Source: Sulfurirhabdus autotrophica
GTDB lineage: Bacteria > Pseudomonadota > Gammaproteobacteria > Burkholderiales > SMCO01
Length of the DNA stretch: 64,000 bases
Reading direction: 5' to 3'
Assembly (NCBI RefSeq): GCF_004346685.1
Contig: NZ_SMCO01000008.1
Span: forward strand, 1 to 64,000
Each line of letters starts with the position of its first letter. Within the stretch, counting starts at the first letter, position 1. The translations under genes were made by a program, and so were the position numbers. Below the pieces are notes generated by a model. That model saw only the letters and a list, made by a program, of their open reading frames with translations. It was not told the origin of the DNA and ran no database searches. Below are positions 21,617 through 42,514 of this stretch, in pieces.

Positions 21617-22850
21617 TCCCACCCCCAATGAATGCTTCGGCAGTCAATTTTCTTCGGAAAGCAATTAGCCCCCTATTCCGTTGCGCCGCAAGCGTTAGCG
21701 TATTGGAAATGCCTGCGCACTCTTCTACGATTGCAGCCTGCTCCGCTAGTGAAGGAATCGGCAAGCCTATCGAGTAAAAGTTATCAAGTGAAACTCGTGT
21801 ACGAGTGCCTCCCTTCATAAATTTCGAGATTGCTCGTGCGGTACGACCATTGTTGAATACAAGAGTCATATATTCCGCGAGTGCCACATCTGGATCGATT
21901 GATGCCTTAATCACGTCCGGTGTAACCATTGCAGTTGGTGACCTAGGCGGATAAATACAGGTCATGCCCGGTGGCTCCCCCATTTTTGCTATCAGTAGAT
22001 CACCAGGCTTTACTGTGTATGGCACGTGAAGACGCTCATAAACTGCTTGATCCATAAATGTGGTGCTTTCGCCCCAAGCGAATCCTGACTTTGTGATGTG
22101 GCGTAGCTGGATGATCGGAATACCCGAGTCTCGGAAATCCCTGGCTTTAAAAATCGTTCCGAATGGTCCGGCAGTCAGAGCATTTGGTTGAGATAGAACG
22201 ATTCCAGGAAGACGAAGAAGCCTCCACTGTTTCGGAAATCTGAAAAATTCTGTCTGAACGCATTGATCATCAGGTAAATTGGATTGCCAATACAAGGCAT
22301 CCAACCTTGCAGCCATTAGCTGGTTTGTCGGTTGAAGAAGACTCGACAGAGAGTCTGAACAGTCTCGGACGGCCACCAGCAGGTCTCTGAGCGGGAATTG
22401 CTCCACCATCGGTGGCAGGAAAAACTCAAATTCAGCTAGGCTTTTCCAGTTTGTACGCGGGCTCAGACTTCCTGCCGAGGTGCCTACCGCATGGTCGAAG
22501 AAGGCTTCGGTCTGGCAGATAAAGGGCAGCAACTCGGGCAGCAGGACGTTCGCATCCAGAGTTTCCAACACGTAGATATCGCCAGAGCACACGCCGGTAA
22601 AATCGGCTACCGCCACCTTGCGCTGGTAAGCGCGGCGTTTGCCGAACAAAACCTGTCCCGGTTTGAACACGCTGGTGAAGGTGACACCGTCCGCTACGCT
22701 ACCCCAACTACGAATTCGCAGATCACCCGGCTCCAGATGCTCCAGCCCGACAAAACGCTCAACGCCTTCGGCCAGCGGATCTTGACAGCGTGCCTTGGAG
22801 AGGCGCACCACTTCTCCGAATTTGACCTTACGCCAATTAGCCTTAGACAT
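21609..22850 (-). CDS. hsdS: Type I restriction enzyme, HsdS specificity subunit
   Basis: A 413-residue DNA-recognition subunit with two target-recognition domains. The first opens with WRKVKFGEVVRLSKARCQDP and QVLFGKRRAYQRKVAVADFTG; the second region contains GIPIIQLRHITKSGFAWGES and KPGDLLIAKMGEPPG, each followed by the coiled-coil spacer LRDLLVAVRDC / LAEQAAIVEECAGI. It starts one base after the stop of the HigA-ImmA gene, so translation is coupled. The half-sites recognised cannot be read from sequence. Confidence 0.9.
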   Translation of the reverse strand: MSKANWRKVKFGEVVRLSKARCQDPLAEGVERFVGLEHLEPGDLRIRSWGSVADGVTFTSVFKPGQVLFGKRRAYQRKVAVADFTGVCSGDIYVLETLDANVLLPELLPFICQTEAFFDHAVGTSAGSLSPRTNWKSLAEFEFFLPPMVEQFPLRDLLVAVRDCSDSLSSLLQPTNQLMAARLDALYWQSNLPDDQCVQTEFFRFPKQWRLLRLPGIVLSQPNALTAGPFGTIFKARDFRDSGIPIIQLRHITKSGFAWGESTTFMDQAVYERLHVPYTVKPGDLLIAKMGEPPGMTCIYPPRSPTAMVTPDVIKASIDPDVALAEYMTLVFNNGRTARAISKFMKGGTRTRVSLDNFYSIGLPIPSLAEQAAIVEECAGISNTLTLAAQRNRGLIAFRRKLTAEAFIGGGNV

Positions 22851-22851
22851 G

Positions 22852-23961
22852 CTACTCGGCTGCTATGAAACGGAAACTCACACGCAAATCATTCATCCAA
22901 GATGGGTCAATCAGGCCATCGTGTTGGAGACGGCCGACCACGATACCAGGATGAATGCCAATTTTTTCGGCAAAATCACATACGGCTGCCTTAGTGCGTA
23001 GCCCCGTCAATTGAGGTGCAAAGCGATCAGGGATCAAAAAACTTCCAGCCCAGTCATTGGCTTCACGTTCTTCCACAGAATCCGCTCCCGATTTAGTCGG
23101 GTCATCCAGATAAACCGATTTTTTCTCTTTTGCATGCAGCAGCACGTGAGCTGCTTCATGAAACAGAGTAAACCAGAACTTGTCGTTGGTTTTGCCATAC
23201 AGGGAGAGTTGAATAAGTGGGCGATGGAGGTTAAGCCAACGCGCAACACCACTGACATGCGCTTTTGGGATGCCCGGAACCAGTACGAAAGCCACTCCTG
23301 CCTGGCGGAACAAGGTGCGCAAATGGGGCTGGAATTCTGCTGGATCAAGGTTGGTCAGTTTACGTATCTCGGTGAGGGCCGCCTCAAAGCGAGCTCGGTC
23401 ATATTTCGGACCATCTTGCTTTTCAGCTTCCTGCTCGCCCATACGCAACCAGGCAGAGATAGCGCCGACATCGCTTTGCTCCTCCCTGCTACGGCGAAAT
23501 GCGGCCTGCATTTCGCCATAATGGCCCTGCCACTCTTCAGGTGAGGCAACACCAAAGAAGCGCAGGCACGATTCCACCAGGCCAGGTTTAGATTTCGCGT
23601 CTACCCGGCGTTTCTCGATGGCACCAGCACTCATCAATTCTTTGATTGGCAGCTGGTCGAGCCAGTCTATCCAACCGGCAAATTTCTCTGCTGCTTCGAG
23701 ACGAGCACAACGCTCACGGTACTTCGCTTCACGTGCCAGCCAGAAGCCAACGGTGCTACCCACCACACGTTCCAATCGAATAGCGGCATCTTCTGTGAGC
23801 GGAACCTTGCCCTTGATGAGCTGGTTAACGTGCTTAGTGGTATAGCCTAATCGTTGCGCCAATTCGGCCTGGGTCCAGTCACGTTCTTCGATGATGTCGA
23901 GAACGGTGTCCCCTGGTGGAGAAACCCAGTCTGGTGCGAATGGGGCTGCCAAATCATTCAT
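22852..23961 (-). CDS. HigA-type antitoxin fused to an ImmA/IrrE zinc peptidase domain
   Basis: A 369-residue protein. Residues 17-75 are an Xre helix-turn-helix (WTQAELAQRLGYTTKHVNQLI), as in HigA antitoxins. The C-terminal half is an ImmA/IrrE metallopeptidase domain with HEAAH at 268-272 and the downstream EREANDWAGSFLIP glutamate segment. I use the ATG at 23961, preceded by GGAG, rather than the long frame to 24093. It overlaps the toxin gene upstream by 8 bp, so the pair is one module. It sits between hsdM and hsdS, so it is embedded in the restriction operon. Peptidase activity in antitoxin control is inferred from ImmA homologues. Confidence 0.8.
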   Translation of the reverse strand: MNDLAAPFAPDWVSPPGDTVLDIIEERDWTQAELAQRLGYTTKHVNQLIKGKVPLTEDAAIRLERVVGSTVGFWLAREAKYRERCARLEAAEKFAGWIDWLDQLPIKELMSAGAIEKRRVDAKSKPGLVESCLRFFGVASPEEWQGHYGEMQAAFRRSREEQSDVGAISAWLRMGEQEAEKQDGPKYDRARFEAALTEIRKLTNLDPAEFQPHLRTLFRQAGVAFVLVPGIPKAHVSGVARWLNLHRPLIQLSLYGKTNDKFWFTLFHEAAHVLLHAKEKKSVYLDDPTKSGADSVEEREANDWAGSFLIPDRFAPQLTGLRTKAAVCDFAEKIGIHPGIVVGRLQHDGLIDPSWMNDLRVSFRFIAAE

Positions 23962-24283
23962 GGTAGTCTCCAATAAATTCGATGCAGATGATTGTGACCT
24001 GTGACCAGTCAATGGACAGATCATCGCGAACGGGGCAAGGATCTTGATCGGAAGCAAATACGAGCCGCCAACCTCCTGCCAAATCGAGAGCAATCTGGCC
24101 CGAACGATCCCCCTTGAGTAGATGGGGATTGCCCGCAGTTAAATCAGTTACCCGGCCTGCTGCATCTAAGTCATCAAGCCGTGTTCTTAATTTACGTGCG
24201 CAAGCGGCACCGAGTTTTTTCTCAGCAACAGCCTGCTTTTCACATAACTCTCGAATCTTTTTGTCCTTGAAGTGTATCTCCAA
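23954..24283 (-). CDS. HigB/RelE-superfamily toxin
   Basis: A 109-residue protein with the HigB-like layout: charged N-terminal helices (DKKIRELCEKQAVAEKKLGAACARKLRTRL), then the beta-strand core GNPHLLKGDRSGQIALDLAGGWRLVFA and a C-terminal strand VTIICIEFIGDYHE. Family members are ribosome-dependent mRNA endonucleases. The gene starts 24 bp from the palindrome at 24308-24324 and overlaps its partner. It is the first gene of the second half of the restriction operon and could be transcribed from its own promoter. Confidence 0.75.
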   Translation of the reverse strand: MEIHFKDKKIRELCEKQAVAEKKLGAACARKLRTRLDDLDAAGRVTDLTAGNPHLLKGDRSGQIALDLAGGWRLVFASDQDPCPVRDDLSIDWSQVTIICIEFIGDYHE

Positions 24284-24307
24284 GAGAACCTCGCCATTCT
24301 ATATAAC

Positions 24308-24324
24308 TTTACCTAATAGGTAAA
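24308..24324. promoter_or_regulatory. Palindromic operator before the HigB-like toxin
   Basis: TTTACC TAATA GGTAAA is a perfect 6-bp-arm palindrome in the 67-bp gap between hsdM and the toxin start at 24283. On the minus strand it lies where a promoter core would be. Position and symmetry suit autoregulation by the Xre-type antitoxin. Confidence 0.6.
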
Positions 24325-24350
24325 TAATTTAATTTCACCTGCCTCAATTT

Positions 24351-25865
24351 CTATTGAGGCAGGTCGGTAACTAATCCATCCAGTGTTTCTACCAGGTTAT
24401 CCATCTGTAGCCAAAAATCACGCCCTGATGTTTGCCATTGCTCCCATGCTGCTTCTAGTGTTTCTGGCTGTTGAGATTGACCATTAACGCTAATGACTGA
24501 AGCTTGGCGTTTGACGTAGAGCGGGATCGACAGGTTGTCTTTGTTAGCAGAGATTTGGTCGATGGTTGCTACTTTTGCAAACCCTGACTCATCTTGGAAA
24601 GCTTGATAGGCATTAAGAACACGCTGCTGGTGCTCCGGCTTGAGGAAGCTCTGCGCCCGTTCCCGCGTGACCTCACTCAACGCGTCGATGAACAGCACCT
24701 TGCCCTTGCGAGCAGCTAGTTTGCGGCGGTTGCAGACAACGATGCAGGATTCCATCGGCGAGTTATAGAACAAGTTCGGCCCGAGGCCAATCACCGCTTC
24801 GACCCAATCCAGCTCGACCATCTTGGCGCGCATGGATTGTTCCTCGTTACGGAACAGCACGCCATGGGGCCAGAGAACGGCGCAGCGGCCTTTGTCACTA
24901 AGACTGGCCAGGATATGCTGCTGGAAGGCGTAGTCGGCTCGGCCCTGAGGTGGGGTGCCAAGGAAGTTGCGGCCCCATTTATCCTTCTCCCACGCTGTGC
25001 GATCCCATTGTTTAATGGAATACGGCGGATTGGCCAGGATCACGTCGAACTTGCGCAGGCGGTCGCCCTCAATGTGCTTGGGGTCGGCCAGGGTGTCACC
25101 CCGGATGATCTGAAAATCCTCAACGCCATGCAAAAAAAGGTTCATCCGCGCAATGCCGGAGGTGATGAGGTTGCGTTCCTGCCCATAGAGCTTGAGTGTG
25201 CGGTACTCGCCACCGCTGCGCTTGACCTCGGCCAACGCCGAAATCAGCATTCCGCCCGTACCGCAGGTAGGATCGTAGATCGACTCGCCAGCCTGAGGCG
25301 CGAGCAGTTGCGTCATCAGGTGCACGACGGTGCGGTTGGTGTAGAACTCTGCGGCAGTATGGCCTGAGTCGTCGGCGAACTTCTTGATCAGGAATTCGTA
25401 GGCATTGCCGAGTTCGTCCTCGGGCACGTTGGCGACCGAGAGCGTCTGGGTCGAGAAGTGCTCAATCAGGTTCTTGAGGGTTTCGTCGGGCAGGCGCTCG
25501 CGGTTGGTCCACGGCGCATCGCCGAAGATGCCGGCGAGCAGGTCGGGATTCGCAGCCTCCAATTGACGCAGGGCAGTCTGAATGGCCATGCCGACATTTT
25601 TCGGTGACTGGCGTACATCCTTCCAGTGCGCACCATCGGGGATCTGGAAGCGGTGGTTCTCTGCAAACTCAGCGTAGGAGAGATCGCTACCAGAATCGGC
25701 CAAAGCGGCTTGGTATTCCTCTTCCCAGATATCCGAGATGCGCTTGAAAAACAGCAGCGGGAAGATGAACTGCTTGTAGTCGCCTGCGTCGATCAGGCCG
25801 CGCAGCAAGACAGCTGCGCCCCAGAGATAACTTTCCAATTCTTGCTGGGTGATCCGGGCGCTCAT
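24351..25865 (-). CDS. hsdM: Type I restriction-modification N6-adenine methylase subunit HsdM (copy 1)
   Basis: A 504-residue methyltransferase subunit. The helical N-terminal HsdM domain (LLFFKRISDIWEEEY) is followed by SAM motif I DPTCGTGG (198-205) and the catalytic NPPY (279-282). It overlaps the other hsdM by 4 bp (ATGA). Length and motifs match the full-size family, and no truncation is seen. With HsdS it should methylate adenines in the host recognition sequence. It is collinear with, but clearly different from, the upstream copy. Confidence 0.93.
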   Translation of the reverse strand: MSARITQQELESYLWGAAVLLRGLIDAGDYKQFIFPLLFFKRISDIWEEEYQAALADSGSDLSYAEFAENHRFQIPDGAHWKDVRQSPKNVGMAIQTALRQLEAANPDLLAGIFGDAPWTNRERLPDETLKNLIEHFSTQTLSVANVPEDELGNAYEFLIKKFADDSGHTAAEFYTNRTVVHLMTQLLAPQAGESIYDPTCGTGGMLISALAEVKRSGGEYRTLKLYGQERNLITSGIARMNLFLHGVEDFQIIRGDTLADPKHIEGDRLRKFDVILANPPYSIKQWDRTAWEKDKWGRNFLGTPPQGRADYAFQQHILASLSDKGRCAVLWPHGVLFRNEEQSMRAKMVELDWVEAVIGLGPNLFYNSPMESCIVVCNRRKLAARKGKVLFIDALSEVTRERAQSFLKPEHQQRVLNAYQAFQDESGFAKVATIDQISANKDNLSIPLYVKRQASVISVNGQSQQPETLEAAWEQWQTSGRDFWLQMDNLVETLDGLVTDLPQ

Positions 25866-27358
25866 TGCAGCCAGCCTCCCTCGGTCATTACTTTGGCGAG
25901 GCGATCCTCGGCTTCGCGGCAGCGGGTGAGTGCATCCTTGAATGAGGCAATGGCTTCCGGCAGTGGCGGAATATCCTCCTGCAAGGGTGGTAGCACGTAG
26001 CGAGAAATGTTGAGCGTCCAGTCCTCGGCCTTGATATCGTCGAGGCTGACGATGCGCACGGCGTCCTGCACGTCCTCGAAGTTTTCGAACCAGCGTTGGA
26101 TTTCCAGCGCATGCTCAGGCTCCAGGTAGTTCTGCGCCCGTCCACGCCGAAACAGGCGGGACGCATCGGCGATCATGACTTTCTTGCGCCGTTGGGCCGG
26201 CTTCTTCTTGCGTAGCACCAGTATGCAAGCGGCAAGGCCAGTGCCGTAGAACAGGTTCGGAGCTAAACCGATGACCGCCTCGACAAGATCCATCTCCAGC
26301 AATTTCTGACGAATCGCACCCTCGGCCCCTTTGCGGAATAACGCGCCCTGCGGCAACACCACGGCCATGCGTCCTTTGACCTCGGCCATCGACTTGACCA
26401 TGTGCTGCACCCAGGCAAAATCACCCGAACTTGAAGGCGGCAGGCCGGCGAAGTTGCGGCCGAATGGGTCATTGATCCACTGTTCCTCGCCCCACTTTTC
26501 CAGTGAGAACGGCGGATTGGCGATGACGCAATCGAAGTTGGCGAGGCGGTCGCCATCGAAGAAGGCCGGGTTTCGGAGAGTGTCGCCACGCACGATCTGA
26601 AAGTCCTCAATGCCGTGTAGGAACAGATTCATACGGGCGATAGACGAAGTGGTGAGGTTTTTCTCCTGACCATAGAGCTTGCCCCACAAGCGCTTCACAT
26701 CACCGTGCATATCCTTCACGTGCAGGACGGCAGCGAGTAGCATGCCGCCAGTGCCGCAAGCCGGGTCGTAGATAGTCTCGCCCTCCCGGGGATCGAGCAT
26801 CTCGATCATCAGCCTAACCACGCTGCGCGGCGTATAGAACTCGCCTGCCTTCTTATTGGTGGCGTCGGCGAATTTCTTGATCAGGTATTCGTAGGCATCG
26901 CCAAGCAAGTCAGAGGTGACATTGTGGTTGCCCAGGGGCAATCTGGAAAAGTGCTCGATAAGATCTTTCAGGAGTGGATCAGACAGACGGTCCTTGTTGG
27001 TCCACTGAGCATCTCCGAATACGCCATAGAGGGTATCAGGATTTGCTTTCTCGATCTCGCGCATGGCCCGTTGCAGTGCGTTGCCCACATTGGTGGCTAC
27101 GGCACGCACATCATTCCAGTGACAGTCATCCGGGATCTGAAAGCGATGTGATTCCGGGAATAACGCAAGTTCGGCATCTCCAGTGTCCGCAACAATCTCA
27201 GCGTATTCATCGTCCCAGACATCGCAGATGCGCTTGAAGAATAGCAGCGGGAAGATGTAAGTCTTGAAGTCAGCCGCGTCCACCGGGCCACGCAGGATAT
27301 TGGCGGACTCCCAGAGATGGGATTCAATCTGGTTGAGCGTGATTTCATTTGCGCTCAA
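25862..27358 (-). CDS. hsdM: Type I restriction-modification N6-adenine methylase subunit HsdM (copy 2)
   Basis: A 498-residue second HsdM in the same operon. Motif I is DPACGTGG (198-205) and the catalytic motif is NPPF (about residue 283), so Phe replaces Tyr. Its N-terminal segment LWESANILRGPVDAADFKTY tracks copy 1 residue by residue with many substitutions, so the two are paralogues rather than a recent duplication. The start is TTG at 27358, overlapping the upstream PIN gene stop (TTGA); an ATG-free N-terminal extension is less likely. The two copies may form a heterodimeric methylase, or one may replace the other. Confidence 0.92.
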   Translation of the reverse strand: MSANEITLNQIESHLWESANILRGPVDAADFKTYIFPLLFFKRICDVWDDEYAEIVADTGDAELALFPESHRFQIPDDCHWNDVRAVATNVGNALQRAMREIEKANPDTLYGVFGDAQWTNKDRLSDPLLKDLIEHFSRLPLGNHNVTSDLLGDAYEYLIKKFADATNKKAGEFYTPRSVVRLMIEMLDPREGETIYDPACGTGGMLLAAVLHVKDMHGDVKRLWGKLYGQEKNLTTSSIARMNLFLHGIEDFQIVRGDTLRNPAFFDGDRLANFDCVIANPPFSLEKWGEEQWINDPFGRNFAGLPPSSSGDFAWVQHMVKSMAEVKGRMAVVLPQGALFRKGAEGAIRQKLLEMDLVEAVIGLAPNLFYGTGLAACILVLRKKKPAQRRKKVMIADASRLFRRGRAQNYLEPEHALEIQRWFENFEDVQDAVRIVSLDDIKAEDWTLNISRYVLPPLQEDIPPLPEAIASFKDALTRCREAEDRLAKVMTEGGWLQ

Positions 27359-27852
27359 GGCTGCAACCCTTCTTCTATTGCATGCAGCCGCTGCTCGGCA
27401 AGGTGCCAAGGCAATCTACGGCCATGCACCTGCATCTGCAGATAGGCATTTCGAGCAACCTGAACTGATATCTTCCCTGTTTTCACCATTTCCTCAACCA
27501 GCCAAAGTGTTCCGTGAACCTGAATATTTTCCTGATCAGCCACCGCTCTCAAGGCACTGTCACCTGTTAATAATGGGCACTTCTCGTGTTCCGCCAACAC
27601 CAGCGCGAATAGGTCCATACGGCCTGGACGCGGGTATTTTTGAGCAAGCTGTTCAACCCGAGTCACCATATTGTCATTCAATGACCTAGACTCCAAACCC
27701 ATTCCCAATAGATACCCATGTTGCTCATCGAGTTCTTCGTAAAACAATACGTCAGGGACAGCAAACTGATAACTGAGACTGAACATTGGAGCAACGAGAC
27801 CACCAATCTCAATATCGATCAGAATATTGGCATCACTGATGAACAGCAGCAT
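27355..27852 (-). CDS. PIN-domain toxin-like protein
   Basis: A 165-residue protein with the PIN RNase layout: the N-terminal strand ISDANILID carries the first acidic residue (Asp7), and Glu39/40, Asp80 in RMDLFALVLAEHE and Asp98 in LLTGDSALR complete the likely metal site. It overlaps the Xre-ImmA gene upstream by 20 bp, matching the Xre-ImmA plus PIN toxin-antitoxin pairing known in other genomes. In the same operon it is followed by both hsdM genes. Confidence 0.75.
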   Translation of the reverse strand: MLLFISDANILIDIEIGGLVAPMFSLSYQFAVPDVLFYEELDEQHGYLLGMGLESRSLNDNMVTRVEQLAQKYPRPGRMDLFALVLAEHEKCPLLTGDSALRAVADQENIQVHGTLWLVEEMVKTGKISVQVARNAYLQMQVHGRRLPWHLAEQRLHAIEEGLQP

Positions 27853-28900
27853 TACTGCCCTCCAAAGCGCGCACGGTTTGGAAGGCGGTCAGAGACATCT
27901 TCATCAGCTCTGCTGCCTTTGACTCCCCGATGTAATCCTCTGCGAGTGCATGAAAAACCAGCTGCTCAAACACATGAGCCTTCTCCGCGGGGTATGGTAT
28001 ACATGGTTCAGTTACATGCCACCCTTTAATTCGGAACAATCGGGCCTGATCGCCACGGTAAGCATGCGTAACAATTCCAAGGTCGCTTGCCCGATAGAGA
28101 ATACCGGCCATGCTTAGGCCAAATTCCTCCTTAAGGAGGGCCAGTTCTTTGGGCTCAATATAATTTCGGTGCTGGCCAAGTTCCTGAAGCACTGACTGCC
28201 GAGGAATCAAAAATGCTCCTGCAAATCGATTGCACGCCTTCTCTTCATCGATGTCAGCCGCTAGGCGACCAGCCAACATCAGGTGCCCCAACTCATGAGC
28301 CAAGGTAAAACGTTGCCGGTCACCAGGCCAATTACTTCCCACAACGACAATCGGCATCTGGTTAACTTTAGCGGCTAAACCATCAAATTTCCGGTCGGTA
28401 TTTGTATCTACAATAAAGACACGAATGCCGTGCGTCTCAAGGACATCAATCAGGTCTGGTATGGGATCAAAGCCCAGCTTCCACGCCTGGCGAACGGTCT
28501 CAGCCACCCCCTCGATCTGCGAGACGTCTACAATAGCGTCAGGCAGACCTTCGACAGGCGCGAATGGAATTACAGGCGGGGTGGGAAACAGGCTCTCTAG
28601 CTCAATTCGCCGTTCGATCTGGTCGATCACCCCATGCGTAATAGCATTAAGCTGTTTCTTGGGTAGAGAACTGCGCTTTCGATACTCAATCCCATCCAGC
28701 GCAACAGTTTCTGGACGAAAAAAATATTCAGTCCGCACATTGAGCGCCCGAGAAAGCTTAATCAATATCTCCGAGGATGGCATTGCCACACCATCTTCGT
28801 ATTTCTTGATAGAAGCATGAGAAAGACCAATTGCATCGCCTAATGCTCGTAGAGATAACCCGGCAGCTTTGCGCGCGCGGAATAATCGCTGGCTAAACAT
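27833..28900 (-). CDS. Xre-family regulator with ImmA/IrrE metallopeptidase domain
   Basis: A 355-residue protein. The N-terminal Xre helix-turn-helix occupies residues 8-60 (LRALGDAIGLSHASIKKYEDG) and the ImmA/IrrE zinc peptidase has HELGH at 202-206 plus the downstream EKACNRFAGAFLIPR segment. Homologues act as antitoxin or repressor controllers paired with PIN or similar toxins. It is the first gene of the long minus-strand defence operon, and the inverted repeat at 28923-28959 lies just upstream of its start. It probably controls the whole operon, but that is inferred. Confidence 0.8.
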   Translation of the reverse strand: MFSQRLFRARKAAGLSLRALGDAIGLSHASIKKYEDGVAMPSSEILIKLSRALNVRTEYFFRPETVALDGIEYRKRSSLPKKQLNAITHGVIDQIERRIELESLFPTPPVIPFAPVEGLPDAIVDVSQIEGVAETVRQAWKLGFDPIPDLIDVLETHGIRVFIVDTNTDRKFDGLAAKVNQMPIVVVGSNWPGDRQRFTLAHELGHLMLAGRLAADIDEEKACNRFAGAFLIPRQSVLQELGQHRNYIEPKELALLKEEFGLSMAGILYRASDLGIVTHAYRGDQARLFRIKGWHVTEPCIPYPAEKAHVFEQLVFHALAEDYIGESKAAELMKMSLTAFQTVRALEGSNAAVHQ

Positions 28901-34713: not shown

Positions 34714-35478
34714 TCAGATCAAGTTTAGGCACATCGCCCGTGCAATCGCTTGAGATCGATTTGTGACATTCAGCTTGGTGTAACAGTTGGTGATGTGGAA
34801 CTTCACAGTACGCTCTGAAATAGACAGTATTGCACCGACTTCCCACGCTGTCTTACCCTCTTTCAACCATTGCAACACTTCCAGTTCGCGGACACTGAGT
34901 ACTGGCGCAATTTCCTCATGCGCCTTCTGACATACCCGTCGCAAAAGTTCATGCAGGTGGGGTAGTGCAAAACGAAGTGCTTCAGAATGGGCACTCGAAA
35001 AAGGTTCGCGTCCCGTCTCAAGGCAAATATAGCTTACTTCGTTGCTTCGCGGCATGGGGCGTGATGCATATGCGAGCCCGCGCTTGAGGCCATAGTCAGC
35101 GGACAATTCCAGAAGCTTTTTCACCTGGACTGCGTTGACTGGTCGGGTGTGCGAAGATATAGCCTCTTCCCATGAAAAAGGATCGGATTCACTCAAACCG
35201 CGGGCGACTAGTGGATCGTATTGCGCAAAAGCCTGCCTGGAATAATTATCCAGAAATTCGGGTGAGTGTCCGAGTGAAAAGGTTCGCACCGTTTGCTTAA
35301 GCGAACTACCGGAAACTTTCAGAAGTCCTACGATACCAGCTTGAAACGGAATGATGTCGTCAAGTTGTGCGAGTGCAGGCACAACTTTGTCCTGATTGTC
35401 CGCGCACCGGCAAAACTCGATGAAATCCAGGAGCCTGTACAAATCTCCACGCGACAATTTCTGTTCCAGTTCACTCAA
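34714..35478 (-). CDS. LuxR-family regulator with autoinducer-binding-like domain
   Basis: A 254-residue regulator. Residues 30-175 resemble the LuxR autoinducer domain, with the YDPL motif at 87-90 and the PFSWEE tryptophan (Trp103) at the positions that contact acyl-homoserine lactones. The C-terminal HTH (about 190-250) is canonical: LSVRELEVLQWLKEGKTAWEVGAILSIS then ERTVKFHITNCYTKLNVTNRSQAI. No LuxI-type synthase is visible, so it may be a LuxR solo. It is divergent from the 36-42.5 kb gene group and its start faces that group's promoter region, making it a plausible activator. Confidence 0.85.
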   Translation of the reverse strand: MSELEQKLSRGDLYRLLDFIEFCRCADNQDKVVPALAQLDDIIPFQAGIVGLLKVSGSSLKQTVRTFSLGHSPEFLDNYSRQAFAQYDPLVARGLSESDPFSWEEAISSHTRPVNAVQVKKLLELSADYGLKRGLAYASRPMPRSNEVSYICLETGREPFSSAHSEALRFALPHLHELLRRVCQKAHEEIAPVLSVRELEVLQWLKEGKTAWEVGAILSISERTVKFHITNCYTKLNVTNRSQAIARAMCLNLI

Positions 35479-35753: not shown

Positions 35754-35908
35754 TCTGATTAGCCCTCAAACTCAGCCAATCTGGTCAAAGTTCTGATCTT
35801 GATGCGGGTTTCCGTTCGATAAGGTACATGTTGGGAAAAAACTCTATAGAGAGCCACTCGGCAAGAATCTTCGGAATCGAAACTGGCTGAGTTTGAGGGT
35901 TAATCAGA
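35754..35908. mobile_element. 155-bp MITE-like element with 25-bp terminal inverted repeats
   Basis: The 25-bp ends 35754-35778 and 35884-35908 are reverse complements with a single mismatch, and no coding capacity lies between them. This is the architecture of a miniature inverted-repeat transposable element or a deletion derivative of an insertion sequence. The parent transposase is not in the window. Target-site duplication cannot be judged with confidence. Confidence 0.55.
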
Positions 35909-36062
35909 AAAAAATATGATAAAAGTTTTTTCTACAGCCTCAACGCAAGCTATAGCTAATCGAGCAGTCATCACAATGACCACCTGTCCGAAAGGACAGT
36001 TTACCGATATCCAATATATAACCAAAATGTACATGGTCACATTTTTTAAGTGGATTATAAAC

Positions 36063-36920
36063 ATGCTACAAAACCATCTCAAAGCTGTATTTGTAGGAAT
36101 GTACATGACCGGGAATGTAGCCCTGTTCCTGATGGCAGTGTACAAGCTCATTTCAGAAGGCAATTCGCTGGCTTGGATCGGTGCTGCCGTAGCTAGCGGG
36201 GCAGTTTCATGCCTGATTGGCCTTTACTATGGGGGATGGTTGCCTCGTACAACGCGGCATATTCCTTTGCTGCTAGTGGCAACCACGCTCGGCACAGCAC
36301 TTGCGGGCATCGGATTGATGAATGACGGGGAAGTTCAAACGGCTAACCTTCCATTCCTTGCTGCGCTTGTCTTGAGCCTAGTCGGCACACTCGCCTATTT
36401 GTACTGGTACTCGATTTTAGGACGACCTGCTACTAAAGCATTGCACGTAGGCGAGATGCTTCCAGTGCTTGATCTAGCCGATGAAACCGGCCAAGCGGTT
36501 CGCATTGATAGTCTGTTTGGAAACCCCTTACTGCTGGTTTTTTACCGTGGCAACTGGTGTCCGCTTTGTATGGCGCAAGTGCGGGAACTAGCCAACCAGT
36601 GTCAGGAATTTCAGCAGCGCGGGGTCACGGTGGCTTTGATCAGTCCTCAACCACAAAACAAAAGCGCCAAATTAGCCATGAACTTAGGCGTCTCATTCAA
36701 GTTTCTAGTTGATAAAGAAGGGAAAGCTGCTAGAAAACTTGGAATTAGCCACATCGCGGGACTTCCGCTTGGTCTTCAAGTTTTTGGCTACAACACTGAC
36801 ACTGTTTTCCCAACTGTTATCGTGACCGACACAAAAGGCAAGATTGTATTCGTTGACCAAACAGAAAATTACAGGGTGAGGCCAGGGCTCGAAGTTTTGT
36901 TAGGTGCTCTGCAAAATTGA
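36063..36920 (+). CDS. Membrane-anchored redoxin (AhpC/TSA-like) protein
   Basis: A 285-residue protein with about four N-terminal helices (residues 10-120, e.g. GMYMTGNVALFLMAVYKLI and LPFLAALVLSLVGTLAYLYW) and a C-terminal redoxin domain with active site FYRGNWCPLC (Cys166, Cys169). The TSA-like strand VTVALISPQ follows. The active site is CxxC, as in the peroxiredoxin-like PrxL2/AhpC group. The start is chosen at 36063 because upstream in-frame ATGs lack support; it could begin earlier. It may reduce thiols or peroxide produced by the neighbouring biosynthetic-type genes. That link is inferred. Confidence 0.65.
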   Translation: MLQNHLKAVFVGMYMTGNVALFLMAVYKLISEGNSLAWIGAAVASGAVSCLIGLYYGGWLPRTTRHIPLLLVATTLGTALAGIGLMNDGEVQTANLPFLAALVLSLVGTLAYLYWYSILGRPATKALHVGEMLPVLDLADETGQAVRIDSLFGNPLLLVFYRGNWCPLCMAQVRELANQCQEFQQRGVTVALISPQPQNKSAKLAMNLGVSFKFLVDKEGKAARKLGISHIAGLPLGLQVFGYNTDTVFPTVIVTDTKGKIVFVDQTENYRVRPGLEVLLGALQN

Positions 36921-37020
36921 AAAAAAGCATGGCTCGGATTATTTTCAATATGTTATTGCCATGAAGCCATAACATAAAACAGTGCAGCAACTTTTTAAAA
37001 AAAATCTATGGAGGTTAACG

Positions 37021-37731
37021 ATGTCAAACAAAATGATTTCACGATACAGAAACAATTATTCAACCAAGAAGCAATGCTCAATTTTGGTGACAGCATTGGT
37101 TGTTACTATTGGATTCACAAGTTCCGTCTTGGCAGACGATGGACGCCGCAATAGTGAAAACAATAATCAACTGCAATTTTCCTTTCAGGTAAAAACATCT
37201 ATTGAACGAATTTCCCCAGAAATACCAACTGGGTTTGGGATGCCGATGAAATATACCGGCACCGCTGAAATAATTAAAATCACGAAAGACCCTATGAAAA
37301 AACTTCGGATGCATGCCAAAGGTAAGGATACAGGTTACATTGAATTTCCGTCTCAAATTGTGCTACCTGATGGCAGTATAACGCGTGATCCGATTGCAAT
37401 GCAGGTGGTTGGCACGCCCAATCTATTTGGTGGCAGAGTTTCCCCGATGAATTCTACAATCATTTCTTTCGGTGACATAGATGGGGATGGGGTTGAAGAC
37501 ACGGTAATAACTCATGGCAACGGATTTTCGCGCATGGTGACTTTACCTAATGAACTACCTGCTGTCATTCACTATTTTGGACTCTGCACGGTAGATGGTG
37601 GCACCGGCCTGTTTGCAAACGCCAAAGGTGATATTTTCCTAGAGGGTGACATGGTCGACCCTGATGGCCCTATGGGCCCTCAGTTGCCTTACTCAGTAGG
37701 AGTCGACAAAGCGTTCATAACTTTACCCTGA
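37021..37731 (+). CDS. Secreted protein, unknown function
   Basis: A 236-residue protein with a Sec signal (CSILVTALVVTIGFTSSVLA, likely cleaved before DDG) behind GGAGG at 37010-37014. It contains DIDGDGVEDT, a calcium-binding EF-hand-like loop, and a glycine-rich beta-strand pattern. No family is recognised. It lies 100 bp after the redoxin gene and is closed by a hairpin at 37874-37914, so it may form a unit with the redoxin. Confidence 0.55.
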   Translation: MSNKMISRYRNNYSTKKQCSILVTALVVTIGFTSSVLADDGRRNSENNNQLQFSFQVKTSIERISPEIPTGFGMPMKYTGTAEIIKITKDPMKKLRMHAKGKDTGYIEFPSQIVLPDGSITRDPIAMQVVGTPNLFGGRVSPMNSTIISFGDIDGDGVEDTVITHGNGFSRMVTLPNELPAVIHYFGLCTVDGGTGLFANAKGDIFLEGDMVDPDGPMGPQLPYSVGVDKAFITLP

Positions 37732-37873
37732 GTTTGAACAGTCTAATCGCTTACTCGAGATTCTCATTAGAGAGATACAATTCGGGTTGCCGCATGGCCA
37801 ACTTATTGGCTCTGGGAAGGTCGCAACATCATAAACATATACAGTTTTTATATGTTTTTTACTAGCAAAAACG

Positions 37874-37914
37874 GGTTTGGTAGCTCTACAATTTTCGAGC
37901 CACCAAACCTTGTT
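37874..37914 (+). terminator. Terminator-like hairpin before the nitroreductase-like gene
   Basis: GGTTTGGT/ACCAAACC plus GCTC/GAGC (37874-37886 with 37897-37909) form a 12-bp stem with one mismatch, followed by a T-rich stretch. It would separate the secreted-protein gene from the 37948 gene, unless it acts as an attenuator. Confidence 0.6.
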
Positions 37915-37947
37915 TCTTCAATTGCTCCTGGCAATTAGGAACCTAAC

Positions 37948-39258
37948 ATGAAAAATTCAAGATTGTCTGCCAGCTTGCTTAAAGTGGCCGATTATCCATT
38001 AGTTGCAGCGCTGATTAATCGTAGAAGTCGTCGGTTTGCCGTAGGTATGGACATTACAAGGGGGCCGTTACAATTCAGCAGTCAATTACCACCTATGCCG
38101 CTCGCGAAGGAAGAAGAAGAACTATTGTTGTTTGCAGGTATCGGTGATACAGGAAACAACATAGGTGATATGGCCTTTGATGAGCATACGGACACGGCCC
38201 AAGGGACGGGGAACAGCGAAGGGCGCACTTTAATGAATTTCCGTGGCCGAACTATTCCGAGTGCCTGCGGAGCCCACACCTCGCAGATTTTCCTTACAAA
38301 CGACGATGGCGTATTTTTTAATCCATGTCATCACGAATTGCCACAACATGATGTGCCTTCGAGTATCGTAAAAGTCTCCAATCAGCGCTTGGAAATCCCA
38401 CGCCGTTTGCCATATATGCATGCTTTTAATCAGCCATATAGCAATGTAGCAGGCAGCACATATTTTATTCCTGTTACCAGTGTTGTGCCGATCTATCTGA
38501 ATCTCCTCTTACTCCTTTTGAGTGAGGAATATGGTTTTTTTATTATCGATACAGAGAATGCTGATGCGCCTTGTGGACTAGCTGATTTTAGACAGTCACA
38601 AGGTGGACACTTGTATGAACAACCTAAAGATGGCCGGATCATGCGGTTGCGCGATCTAGATTCGATGGTTGCAGAAACCGCCGCTATCGAACAAGGCATC
38701 ATTTGCCAAAACATGATGCTCATGACTCAAGCAATGGGACTTGGCGGTAGTATCCAAACGCTGGGCAGTGGACGTCATATGCTTGGCTGCAATCCGGAAG
38801 TATTCGAAGGTCTGGGTTTTCAATTTGAGGCGGCGACACGGTCTGGGGTTCCTTCGAACCCGATTGGTAGGCTACCGGTATGGAACAGCTTGCTACCCCC
38901 TTTTGTAAAAAGCATGTCCGAAGCAGTTCAGACTGTAGTCAAATCGAAATTTGGACCCGAAGGGTTTTATCGCCAAAAAGGATACACACCATGGAAGCCT
39001 GAGACGTTTGACGTACCTGTTTTAGCGCATTCGGAACGGACAATTGACGCGGCAATAGCTTTCTGTGAATACGTCCAAAAAATTTATGGCAGATTTCCGG
39101 CCCATGTAGATGCGTTTCGTTGCGCGTATACCTACCAGGCACATCACCTGGATATGGACTTCTATGACATGCATTTCAAACAAGGTGCTTATACCAAAAC
39201 ACAGGCAGAACATCAGGAGAAATGGCACGGTGGGGAACGGCATGTTAGCAAATATTGA
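37948..39258 (+). CDS. Nitroreductase-fold-like protein
   Basis: A 436-residue protein. The N-terminus (VAALINRRSRRFAVGMDIT) and the helix AETAAIEQGIICQNMMLMTQ then AMGLGGSIQTL resemble the FMN-binding layout of nitroreductase-family enzymes. The middle contains GDTGNNIGDMAFDEHTDTA and FFNPCHHELPQHD, which I do not recognise. It is longer than ordinary nitroreductases (about 200-250 residues). The end overlaps the ketoacyl synthase start by 17 bp, so the pair is translated together. A redox tailoring role in the neighbouring cluster is inferred. Confidence 0.45.
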   Translation: MKNSRLSASLLKVADYPLVAALINRRSRRFAVGMDITRGPLQFSSQLPPMPLAKEEEELLLFAGIGDTGNNIGDMAFDEHTDTAQGTGNSEGRTLMNFRGRTIPSACGAHTSQIFLTNDDGVFFNPCHHELPQHDVPSSIVKVSNQRLEIPRRLPYMHAFNQPYSNVAGSTYFIPVTSVVPIYLNLLLLLLSEEYGFFIIDTENADAPCGLADFRQSQGGHLYEQPKDGRIMRLRDLDSMVAETAAIEQGIICQNMMLMTQAMGLGGSIQTLGSGRHMLGCNPEVFEGLGFQFEAATRSGVPSNPIGRLPVWNSLLPPFVKSMSEAVQTVVKSKFGPEGFYRQKGYTPWKPETFDVPVLAHSERTIDAAIAFCEYVQKIYGRFPAHVDAFRCAYTYQAHHLDMDFYDMHFKQGAYTKTQAEHQEKWHGGERHVSKY

Positions 39259-40558
39259 AGTCATGGGAAAAATGGAGAAATCCTTGGAAGCCCCATACTA
39301 TGATGCACAACAAAAAAAGGTGAGAGTTGTGGTGACCGGGCTCGGCATTGTATCTCCTCTGGGCAGTGACATTACACAATTCTGGTCTAGGTTATGCGCT
39401 GGCGAGTCTGGTGTGGCCCCAGCTACCAGCTTTGACACTTCGTCATTTGCTTCTTCGTTGGTAGCTGAAGTTTGCGACTTCGACCAAGTTAATACGCTGG
39501 GTGCAAAGTTGTCTCGACGTACCGATCGCGTAACCCAATTTGGTTTGCTAGCTGCATTGCGTGCTTGGTCAGATTCAGGCTTTGATGTTGCTCTTGGCAC
39601 TACAGATGATATTGGTGTTTGTGCAGGCACATCAATTGGCGGACTAGGTACGGCATTCAGGACACACGACTTGGTGCGCGAAGGAAACCTAAGGCGAATC
39701 AGTCCATTCACCATGTCTGCGACCTTTGCCAATGCACTTTCTGGAGAGATATCCATTGCACTTGGTGTAACAGGCCCTAGCGAGAGCATTTCAAATGGCT
39801 GCTCTTCGACTGCTAGCGCTATGGTGCGCGCTGCCGAACTAATCCGTAATGGAGAATGCCGTGCCGTAGTAGTTGTCGGTGCAGAGGCACCCCTGCATCC
39901 GACAATTTTTGCCGCCATGGAAGCAGGTGGGATGTTGGCTCCCGACGATGGGGGGCGTATACGTGATCTACCGCGGCCTTTCGATGCGCGCCGCTGTGGA
40001 ATTGTGATGGGTGAAGGCGCTGGATCTGTCATTCTGGAAGATTATAGTTACGCCGCGCAACGGGGGGCGAGAATCTACGGTGAGCTTGTCGGCTCGGGTG
40101 CCAGTTGCGATGCTTACTCAATGTTTAAGCCTAGAGAAGATGGCATGCTTGCTCGGTTAGCAATTGAAAAGGCCATCCAAACTGCTGGCTGGAATGCGCA
40201 TCAGGTGGATTACATAAACGCATGTGGTTTGGGTACCACCGACTTAGATCGAGTAGAAACGCACGCAATCAAAATGGCACTCGGGCAAGATGCAGGACGA
40301 ATACCGATAAGCTCTGTGAAAGGGGCGCTAGGTCATGCATTCGCGGCAAGCGGAATTTTTCAAATAATCACTTCGTTGCTTTCGATACGTGACGGAATAA
40401 TCCCTCCAACACTTCATTTATCTGAATCAGATCCGGAGTGTGATCTTAGTTATGTACGAAAAATGCATCAGACACCCCATTTGCAGCGAATTTTAGTAAA
40501 TAGCTTCGGGTTTGGCGGCAAGAATGTCGTATTGGCGCTAGCCCAGGTAGATAGGTAA
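39242..40558 (+). CDS. Beta-ketoacyl synthase with altered active site
   Basis: A 438-residue KAS of the FabF/KSalpha type. The nucleophile is intact as ISNGCSST (Cys187), and the second His is intact in SVKGALGH (His365) with NSFGFGGKN near the end. The first active-site His, normally in a HGTGT motif, is Cys328: the segment reads INACGLGTTDLDRVE. Two base changes are needed from a His codon, so it is not a simple point error. I start at 39242 behind GGGGAA; ATG 39263 is the alternative. No acyl-carrier protein or reductase gene is visible. It could be a chain-length factor-like or otherwise specialised synthase. Confidence 0.75.
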   Translation: MLANIEVMGKMEKSLEAPYYDAQQKKVRVVVTGLGIVSPLGSDITQFWSRLCAGESGVAPATSFDTSSFASSLVAEVCDFDQVNTLGAKLSRRTDRVTQFGLLAALRAWSDSGFDVALGTTDDIGVCAGTSIGGLGTAFRTHDLVREGNLRRISPFTMSATFANALSGEISIALGVTGPSESISNGCSSTASAMVRAAELIRNGECRAVVVVGAEAPLHPTIFAAMEAGGMLAPDDGGRIRDLPRPFDARRCGIVMGEGAGSVILEDYSYAAQRGARIYGELVGSGASCDAYSMFKPREDGMLARLAIEKAIQTAGWNAHQVDYINACGLGTTDLDRVETHAIKMALGQDAGRIPISSVKGALGHAFAASGIFQIITSLLSIRDGIIPPTLHLSESDPECDLSYVRKMHQTPHLQRILVNSFGFGGKNVVLALAQVDR

Positions 40559-40566
40559 GCGTTGTA

Positions 40567-40992
40567 ATGTCACGCCTTTCTGTGCACTTTCATAAGTTTT
40601 TAGCGAATGCGCTGAATGGTGAACTTTTAAGTAAAAAGATTTCTATCAACAACAGACTCCTCTTGGTGGAATGGACGGCGCGCGCCCAACGCGAGCTTGA
40701 TCGCCGAAAACGCCCTCTGTATGTCGAGATGGAACTGTACTTCTCTTGTATGGTAAAAAAATACATTCACTTTCATGAAAAACCTCGCAACAAGACACCA
40801 GTTTACGTCAATGAAAAATTCGCCGTATATTTCCGCCCAGTCACATCGTCAAATTGCAGTTTGGAGATTGCTGCGAATTTAGGACGTCAACCGGAAATTG
40901 AATTACACAACAAAGCTGTGACACGTTTGGTGCCAAAGCGCATTTTCATCGACTTCAAGAATACGCAATGGATTGGTGAATATTGGCTATAG
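40567..40992 (+). CDS. Hypothetical protein in the ketoacyl synthase cluster
   Basis: A 141-residue protein, 8 bp after the ketoacyl synthase stop. It is basic and beta-rich (ISINNRLLLVEWTARAQREL, KRPLYVEMELYFSCMVKKYIHF, VPKRIFIDFKNTQW). No signal sequence or family is recognised. The tight spacing marks it as a partner of the synthase, but its role is unknown. Confidence 0.5.
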   Translation: MSRLSVHFHKFLANALNGELLSKKISINNRLLLVEWTARAQRELDRRKRPLYVEMELYFSCMVKKYIHFHEKPRNKTPVYVNEKFAVYFRPVTSSNCSLEIAANLGRQPEIELHNKAVTRLVPKRIFIDFKNTQWIGEYWL

Positions 40993-41059
40993 AAAAAAAC
41001 CACTGCTAAAGGACGGTTGGACGAACACATTAATTCAGATCATATAGGGAGTTCAAAGT

Positions 41060-42514
41060 ATGGAATTGCTAAAATTGTTGTTAAAAGTAGTCCCCCTAAG
41101 CTTGGCAAGTTTAGTTGCGATGGGAGTGGAAGCTGAAGCCTCGCCTTCGGCGGTAATTGAATGGAATAATGTAATACTTGAAGCGATTCGCGTCACTCAT
41201 CCTGGGCCTCCTATGGTAGCGCGCATGCTGGCCGTTTCTCATACCTGCATGTATGACGCATGGGCCGCTTATGATGCAGACGCAATCGGAACGCGTTTGG
41301 GCAGCGCTTTGCGTAGACCGGAAGGTGAGCGAACCGATGCCAACAAGACCAAAGCGATCAATTACGCTGCTTACCGTGCAGCAGTCGATCTTTTCCCCAG
41401 CGAGAAACCTGTGTTTGATGCAAAGATGGCCTCGCTTGGATACAACCCGATCAGCGGGACGAACGATATGGCAACCCCTGAAGGGATTGGCAACGTGGCT
41501 TGTAAGGCTGTACTCGATTTTCGTCACGCAGATGGTTCCAACCAACTGGGCGACTTAGCCCCAGGGGCCTACAGCGATTACACCGGCTATCAACCGGTAA
41601 ATACCCCCGATTCGATCATTGACCCCAACCACTGGCAACCGCTCCGTGTAAGCAATGGCCACGGGGGTACCGTGAACCAAAAATTCATCGCGCCGCATTG
41701 GGGTAATGTAGTCCCCTTCGCCCTCAAATCGCTCCAACAATATAAAATTAAAGCACCCAGTCTGGCAGGCTCCATGGGATACTTGGAGCAAGCACGCGAG
41801 ATTCTAAGCTATAGTGCCACGTTGACTGATGTTCAAAAGGTTATTGCAGAATATTGGGCAGATGGTCCGAACTCTGAATTACCTCCTGGACACTGGAGCC
41901 TTTTTGCTCAGTTTGTATCGGAACGTGATGGTTATAATGTGGACAAGGACGCTAAGTTGTTTTTTGCCATGAATAATGCGCTGTTCGATGCTAGCGTGTG
42001 GACATGGGGCATTAAACGCCAATACGATTACGTTCGCCCTGTAAGTGCCATTCATTACTTGTTCAATGGTCAAACAGTTAAAGCATGGGGCGGCGCCTAT
42101 CAAGGTACGCGAGATGTCCTGGGAGGAAGCTGGAATCCATACCAAGCGAGCACAGTTGTAACACCGCCGTTTGCCGAATATGTTTCGGGCCACAGCACGT
42201 ATAGTGCTTCTGCGGCGGAGGTGCTAAAACTCTTTACGGGCAGCGATGTGTTCGGATACGGCGTGACGATCGGGAAGGGCACTTCACGCGTCGAGCCTGG
42301 TAGTGTGCCGGCTGCAGATATTTTGCTTTCCTGGGCTACGTTTACCGACGCTTCGGATGAGGCTGGTATATCTCGACGCTATGGTGGTATTCACTTCCGC
42401 GATGGCGACATGGAAGGTCGCCGAGTTGGTCATCTCATTGGTAGTGAGGCATGGAAGAAGGCAAAAAAACTCTTCGCTCCGCATGCCGGTAGGGACAACG
42501 ACGGTAGCACATAA
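41060..42514 (+). CDS. Secreted vanadium-dependent haloperoxidase
   Basis: A 484-residue enzyme of the vanadium haloperoxidase/PAP2 superfamily, which uses peroxide to oxidise halides and halogenate or cyclise organic substrates. The vanadate site is visible: KRQYDYVRP (Lys319, Arg326; the K-x6-RP pattern), VSGHST (His378) and SRRYGGIHFRDGD near the C-terminus. An N-terminal signal (LLLKVVPLSLASLVA) predicts export. It lies 67 bp after the unknown protein and ends the plus-strand gene group. It could also be a phosphatase, but the K-x6-RP motif and length favour a haloperoxidase. Confidence 0.78.
   Translation: MELLKLLLKVVPLSLASLVAMGVEAEASPSAVIEWNNVILEAIRVTHPGPPMVARMLAVSHTCMYDAWAAYDADAIGTRLGSALRRPEGERTDANKTKAINYAAYRAAVDLFPSEKPVFDAKMASLGYNPISGTNDMATPEGIGNVACKAVLDFRHADGSNQLGDLAPGAYSDYTGYQPVNTPDSIIDPNHWQPLRVSNGHGGTVNQKFIAPHWGNVVPFALKSLQQYKIKAPSLAGSMGYLEQAREILSYSATLTDVQKVIAEYWADGPNSELPPGHWSLFAQFVSERDGYNVDKDAKLFFAMNNALFDASVWTWGIKRQYDYVRPVSAIHYLFNGQTVKAWGGAYQGTRDVLGGSWNPYQASTVVTPPFAEYVSGHSTYSASAAEVLKLFTGSDVFGYGVTIGKGTSRVEPGSVPAADILLSWATFTDASDEAGISRRYGGIHFRDGDMEGRRVGHLIGSEAWKKAKKLFAPHAGRDNDGST

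Follow-up and report, generated by a model that had tools for sequence, protein, structure and literature searches.

We analysed a 64,000-nucleotide stretch of the Sulfurirhabdus autotrophica genome (assembly GCF_004346685.1, contig NZ_SMCO01000008.1, positions 1 to 64,000; hereafter the window) and found that two overlapping genes in it, encoding a nitroreductase-like protein (NTR) and a FabF-like ketoacyl synthase (KAS), recur as a pair in Nitrospira, where a LuxR-type gene generally lies upstream. On balance, we favour the reading that NTR-KAS is a co-inherited two-enzyme core tied to regulation of the LuxR type, with a small molecule derived from an acyl group as its product. An earlier sequence-only reading had treated the pair as part of an unrecognised cluster of six genes (redoxin, secreted protein, NTR, KAS, a 141-amino-acid protein and a haloperoxidase) and had proposed a search for conserved gene order; that order was recovered for NTR-KAS beside LuxR in Nitrospira, but not for the six genes as one set.

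Relatives of NTR were collected by a contig scan with a six-row alignment, which matched at least 588 stretches and yielded 306 relatives, of which the best 80 were kept; these 80 are spread over many bacterial phyla and archaea. Among them, the 14 Nitrospira-group loci (L013–L026, one record being titled Nitrosospira) carry LuxR, NTR and KAS in this order on a single strand. In the family of N. defluvii, 45 of the 147 genomes searched have an NTR match, 43 of them at E < 1e-120. Thirty loci together with the 14 above made up a Nitrospira-group set of 44 loci in 37 distinct genomes, six of the 43 strong-match genomes lying outside it. The close NTRs of these 37 genomes are 46–50% identical to the window NTR, and KAS directly follows NTR on the same strand at every locus (44/44 loci, 37/37 genomes). 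A LuxR-type gene was seen in the initial flank of 37 of the 44 loci (30/37 genomes); wider flanks of the seven other genomes revealed one in six, the seventh having an early contig end, which brings the total with a LuxR-type gene upstream of NTR-KAS to 36 of 37. KAS/FabF queries (E ≤ 1e-6) gave zero matches in 75 other NTR-family loci (eight plasmid loci, L120 and 66 contig loci, L027–L092), some of which have short flanks (15 of the 66 contig loci lacking KAS are shorter than 12 kb); cytochrome P450 queries matched four of the 75. Because the NTR-KAS pairing recurs in 37/37 other genomes examined, it exceeds chance.

KAS is homologous to KAS II (E 1e-87 to 4ls5), whose catalytic triad is C163, H303 and H340 (PMC7138838). 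An alignment with FabF structures shows the active Cys and the His340 equivalent present in the window KAS but Cys at the His303 position, so that Cys-Cys-His stands in place of Cys-His-His. The same replacement was present at all 44 Nitrospira-group loci (all 37 genomes), the motif reading NACGLGS at locus L122, while the FabF of the window genome is canonical (NAHGTST). The score of KAS against the fabF equivalog TIGR03150 is 399 bits, under the cutoff of 493.75. Both ketosynthase His residues normally serve condensation with malonyl-acyl carrier protein (ACP). With His303 replaced by Cys, ordinary decarboxylative elongation is doubtful, as is the "acyl-chain building" previously proposed for the cluster, and from the normal role of the two His residues we infer that KAS would either transfer acyl groups or condense them without decarboxylation. 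There are known ketosynthases that acylate or that join chains head-to-head (PMC4578411).

NTR, a member of an unnamed family, scored under the Pfam Nitroreductase cutoff (E 0.006; 17.3 against 23.5 bits). Its AlphaFold model, built from a 40-row alignment (predicted local distance difference test, pLDDT, 84), has a nitroreductase fold, with a Foldseek E value of 3e-5 to 3hoi and Z scores of 14.8 over 174 residues to the flavin mononucleotide (FMN) nitroreductase 8cqs, 13.5 to BmdC, 12.9 to ThcOx and 11.2 to CLA-ER, which we take to be a fatty-acid enone reductase. R25, R28 and R29 are invariant across the 40 aligned rows. The model points to a nitroreductase-fold enzyme that is probably flavin-dependent (FMN). 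A second NTR paralogue, 39–43% identical, was found in four Nitrospira-family genomes (G481, G430, G467 and G424), and a fifth, G414, has a lone NTR-like match. In Rhizobium and Nonomuraea, the gene ahead of the NTR-like one encodes a catalase/animal-haem-peroxidase fusion, and in Phyllobacterium an annotated peroxidase; an oxylipin or peroxide pathway is possible there. The idea of NTR as a general peroxidase partner was rejected, as neighbour clustering gave no general partner.

Among 100 relatives, NTR is confined to the window genome, and 399 same-order genomes gave the window genome and one distant match (G392, 31% identity, no adjoining KAS). A quick NTR tree placed the window sequence outside the 37 Nitrospira sequences (Shimodaira–Hasegawa-like approximate likelihood ratio test, SH-aLRT, 99), on the branch joining the Nitrospira group and 13 others (SH-aLRT 99), its long end branch making this position less sure. 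The window NTR is not a recent acquisition from any of the Nitrospira sampled. The KAS tree had weak support (53) and a very long outgroup branch. Nonsynonymous to synonymous substitution ratios were 0.03–0.13 for both genes (six pairs). NTR and KAS distances correlated at r 0.92 over 666 pairs, a value obtained without a control gene and not used as evidence. Among plasmids, KAS had 340 matching records at E ≤ 1e-50; no match reached 60% identity, and the best among those listed had 40.6%.

The pocket motif of the window LuxR, FYDPWG, shares five of six residues with the WYDPWG of acyl-homoserine lactone (AHL) sensors. Across the aligned Nitrospira LuxR rows, 43/44 retain Y61, D70 and P71 and lack W57, W85 and G113 (Cys at G113); several of the rows duplicate a genome already represented, and W85 lies in a gapped alignment region. 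The exception, which has W57 and G113, comes from L170, where luxI adjoins the LuxR gene. Neither the window LuxR (84 bits) nor that of L020 (94 bits) reached the EpsA cutoff (TIGR03020, 170 bits). The LuxI family PF00765 matched seven of the 37 Nitrospira genomes, the match in G457 being only a 31-bit fragment where a contig ends. In three of the seven (G440, G476 and G426), luxI and the core are no more than about 4 kb apart; in the other four they are on separate contigs. PF00765 gave zero matches in the window genome and in 30 of the 37; two of six plasmid records matched, and the 14 named controls did not. As its genome has no PF00765 match, the window LuxR looks like a solo.

In the gap between luxR and the redoxin gene, the perfect palindrome CTGTCCGAAAGGACAG ends 63 bp ahead of the redoxin ATG and is the one exact match to CTGNCCNNNNGGNCAG in the 3.86-Mb genome (59 contigs). 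The chance of an exact lux box in this 584-bp stretch is about 4.5e-4; when up to two mismatches are allowed, 18 matches occur in the window, where 22.6 would be expected. The same gap holds a 25-bp inverted repeat (96%) around about 105 bp (35754–35908), with no second copy in the genome, a candidate miniature inverted-repeat transposable element or regulatory sequence. Between the redoxin/secreted genes and NTR-KAS, a hairpin (dG −20.4, z −4.8), missed by a simple terminator scan with a loop limit of 8, which its loop exceeds, suggests two transcription units, redoxin/secreted and NTR onwards. A promoter scan found 24 candidates against 13.4 in shuffles, which we leave uninterpreted; terminators numbered 11 against 9.6.

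Wide flanks showed P450s of two clusters, identified by Pfam on representatives, in 15 of 29 loci: c18 is divergent and just upstream of NTR in seven, and c15 lies after KAS in seven and upstream in one. These shares are not population estimates, because 15 of the wide loci were picked partly for an unseen LuxR. Automated gene picking in the 29 loci dropped NTR in one and KAS in three where open reading frames (ORFs) overlap; tblastn finds both.

For the substrate, reactions, product and regulation of NTR-KAS, we propose the following. The active Cys of KAS would be loaded with an acyl group whose donor is probably the fatty-acid ACP of the cell itself, and KAS, its decarboxylation His being Cys, would either transfer this group or use it in a condensation without decarboxylation. 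NTR, probably with FMN, would then reduce or oxidise the KAS product. Lineage-specific oxidative enzymes may tailor that product, namely the two P450 types in some Nitrospira and perhaps the haloperoxidase in the window. In the window, the redoxin/secreted unit is the probable target of the LuxR solo, through the lux box, and NTR-KAS-141aa(-haloperoxidase) is probably transcribed separately.

All six plus-strand genes, with the LuxR-type regulator divergent from them, are present and placed as the sequence-only reading had it (ORFs, Pfam; Table 1). Its 17-bp NTR/KAS overlap depends on the KAS start: ATG 39242, preceded by the Shine-Dalgarno-like GGTGGGG, is most plausibly the start and gives this overlap. 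The redoxin ATG at 36063 is nested in a longer ORF opening at 35916, and the secreted protein, ending at 37731, starts at GTG 36982 or ATG 37024. Pfam matches were AhpC-TSA (7e-22) for the redoxin, ketoacyl-synt (2e-42) for KAS, DUF6851 (1e-45) and VCPO_2nd (9e-26) for the haloperoxidase, and GerE (4e-21) and Autoind_bind (6e-12) for LuxR; the secreted and 141-amino-acid proteins gave zero. The statement that the window lacks an ACP agrees with a crude motif scan of its 60–220-amino-acid ORFs, which came back empty. Gene G+C content is 43–52%, unremarkable against 48.3% for the window. The SecD of the window genome has its closest match among plasmid-collection records in Neisseria (56%), which suggests a betaproteobacterium, a group that GTDB places in a broad Burkholderiales. 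Elsewhere in the window lie type I restriction-modification genes (HsdR, HsdS-like and HsdM; 18641–25865), and G+C over 18641–28900 is 54.6% against the window's 48.3%.

Table 1 Features at and around the NTR-KAS pair (positions in the window).
Feature	Position	Strand	Basis or remark
luxR-type regulator	34714..35478	-	Divergent from the six plus-strand genes; Autoind_bind and GerE domains
lux-box palindrome CTGTCCGAAAGGACAG	35984..35999		Genome-wide exact-match scan
Redoxin	36063..36920	+	AhpC/TSA domain, CPLC motif; hydrophobic N-terminal part
Secreted protein, family unnamed	37024..37731	+	Signal peptide by sequence reading
Terminator- or attenuator-like hairpin in the secreted gene/NTR gap	37869..37915	+	Folding energy
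NTR (nitroreductase-like), core gene 1, unnamed family of about 430 amino acids	37948..39258	+	Nitroreductase fold in predicted model
KAS (ketoacyl synthase, FabF-like), core gene 2	39242..40558	+	Cys-Cys-His replacing Cys-His-His
141-amino-acid protein, unnamed family	40567..40992	+	ORF; scattered among same-order genomes
Vanadium haloperoxidase-like protein, NapH type, putatively secreted	41060..42514	+	Pfam; catalytic His present

The four genes beside NTR-KAS look locally assembled. The redoxin is probably membrane-anchored and, lying close by, could limit peroxide damage; its query matched no NTR locus examined, no standalone cross-genome redoxin search having been made. The secreted protein is nearly an orphan, found in two of the 399 same-order genomes (itself and one weak match). 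The 141-amino-acid protein has homologues in 38 of the 399, itself included, and belongs to an unnamed family of about 120 amino acids with the motifs ELYFSCLxRK and FRPV and no Pfam match in 17/17 members. Its model (pLDDT 86) had no Foldseek match at E ≤ 0.001, and weak IscA/SufA rows were not used. No window neighbour recurs at the 16 homologue loci inspected, where the commonest neighbour cluster is a PAS-type protein (6/16). The haloperoxidase has homologues at E ≤ 1e-20 in six of the 399 genomes, itself included (best relative 59%), and three homologue loci inspected, one a 5.6-kb contig, contain no other window protein. Its ORF segments KRQYDYVRP, VSGH and SRRYGGIH hold the vanadate residues of what we take to be the motif K, R, (P)SGH, R and H, the P of PSGH being V, and it keeps the catalytic His that the aligned relatives 9ptr, 9l8x and NapH3 are without. 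The vanadate residues agree with its earlier naming as a vanadium haloperoxidase, an identity predicted from sequence; its substrate may be the product of NTR-KAS, or it may have nothing to do with the pair. In one KSB1 genome, an NTR-family gene has a short haloperoxidase-like gene immediately upstream (L090 8853–9611).

Several points weigh against an acyl-derived, LuxR-linked NTR-KAS core. ACP, thioesterase and transporter genes are absent from the six. By homology searches, the redoxin, secreted protein, 141-amino-acid protein and haloperoxidase are without a conserved link to the core, their queries matching none of 17 wide Nitrospira loci, and 14 of the 29 wide loci have neither P450 type. 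KAS clears the KAS II subfamily model NF005589 (388.5 against a cutoff of 387), so that it may yet be a working condensing enzyme, and the Cys may support decarboxylation after all. About three exact lux-box matches are expected per genome by composition, and a reversed control pattern gave four, so that the rarity of the box is uninformative and its position is informative; no exact lux box was found in the Nitrospira core loci scanned. In the window, the lux box precedes the redoxin gene and a strong hairpin stands before NTR, which leaves control of NTR-KAS by LuxR unproven.

Other explanations were weighed against the same data. The LuxR beside NTR-KAS might respond to what the pair itself makes; in Photorhabdus, PluR and PauR respond in this way to pyrones and dialkylresorcinols that ketosynthases produce (PMC4414361). 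The substituted Nitrospira LuxR motifs, the comparably degraded motifs of PluR and PauR (TYDQCS and TYDQYI; PMC4414361) and the lack of a luxI match in most of the genomes speak for such a non-AHL circuit, whereas the window LuxR is closer to an AHL sensor, KAS is FabF-like and outside the PpyS class, luxI beside the cluster in three genomes fits AHL control, W85 is poorly aligned and many of the genomes are incomplete metagenome-assembled genomes; we regard this circuit as doubtful. Equally tentative is the broader claim that NTR-KAS is a new class of two-enzyme biosynthetic core, in which a Cys-Cys-His KAS, as acyltransferase or condensing enzyme without decarboxylation, works with a nitroreductase-fold partner. 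In nitrite-oxidising Nitrospira, such a core would make a density signal other than an AHL, detected by the neighbouring LuxR, and the window genome would have the core too, with a haloperoxidase in the P450's place.

A role of NTR-KAS in the metabolism of lipids or the envelope, making an unusual fatty acid and no diffusible metabolite, is unlikely: a FabF-like KAS, the absence of an exporter and of nonribosomal peptide synthetase (NRPS) or polyketide synthase genes from the six, and the match of the NTR fold to CLA-ER agree with such a role, but LuxR and luxI linkage, variable P450 partners, patchy distribution (45/147) and the missing catalytic His are more in keeping with specialised metabolism. 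Least probable, to our minds, is the proposal of the sequence-only reading that all six genes form one pathway in which the secreted vanadium haloperoxidase halogenates an exported product. The shared strand, the short gaps from NTR to haloperoxidase, the signal peptides, the conserved haloperoxidase residues and the KSB1 gene pair favour it; yet the haloperoxidase, 141-amino-acid and secreted genes are unlinked to the core elsewhere and the hairpin divides the gene row, while for halogenation itself the support is limited to the presence of the haloperoxidase gene. A conserved six-gene operon was rejected on the searches with these three proteins, the neighbourhoods of the 141-amino-acid and haloperoxidase homologues and the lack of matches in the 17 wide Nitrospira loci.

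Nitrospira are major nitrite oxidisers, including complete ammonia oxidisers, and their quorum-sensing targets are largely unknown; NTR-KAS, which can be cloned, is a candidate source of a signal or other specialised metabolite in nitrifiers, as well as a probe of Cys-Cys-His ketosynthase function. In keeping with the earlier claim of an undescribed gene order, no description of the core was found in the Nitrospira quorum-sensing and biosynthesis literature searched, though Mellbye 2017 and Nasuno 2012 could contain one. A survey of Nitrospira clusters lists terpene, ribosomally synthesised and post-translationally modified peptide, phosphonate, homoserine lactone, aryl polyene, NRPS and polyketide classes, and its accessible text does not name NTR-KAS (PMC9765116). 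NspI/NspR1 and NjpI/NjpR (PMC8553950, PMC5767232) come from the same group, in which luxI lies near NTR-KAS in three genomes here; reported NspR1 targets are nspI, a GGDEF/EAL gene and Nspbox23 with rpoD2 (PMC8553950), and the words "ketoacyl" and "nitroreductase" occur nowhere in the main texts of the two papers.

NTR resembles the SagB/BmdC/ThcOx oxidases and FMN nitroreductases in its predicted nitroreductase fold and its N-terminal RRSRR stretch; it differs from them in having about 430 residues and long insertions, and no precursor peptide or NRPS was seen. The window haloperoxidase is homologous to NapH1/NapH3 along about 390 residues, with E 2e-58 for NapH3; it has the catalytic His that NapH3 lacks, and no meroterpenoid genes surround it. 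KAS is like FabF/KAS II in homology, active Cys, His340 equivalent and GFGG loop, and differs in the change of His303 to Cys. Its best families are FabF/KAS II, and these family matches set it outside the PpyS class; PpyS and DarB are FabH-like. The PpyS/PluR and DarABC/PauR systems of Photorhabdus (PMC4414361, PMC4578411) are alike in that a LuxR-type receptor is served by an atypical ketosynthase, and PluR and PauR share a substituted AHL motif with the LuxRs of the Nitrospira clusters. Unlike them, the system described here has a FabF-like Cys-Cys-His KAS with a nitroreductase-fold partner and, in the window, a LuxR that is nearly of the AHL type.

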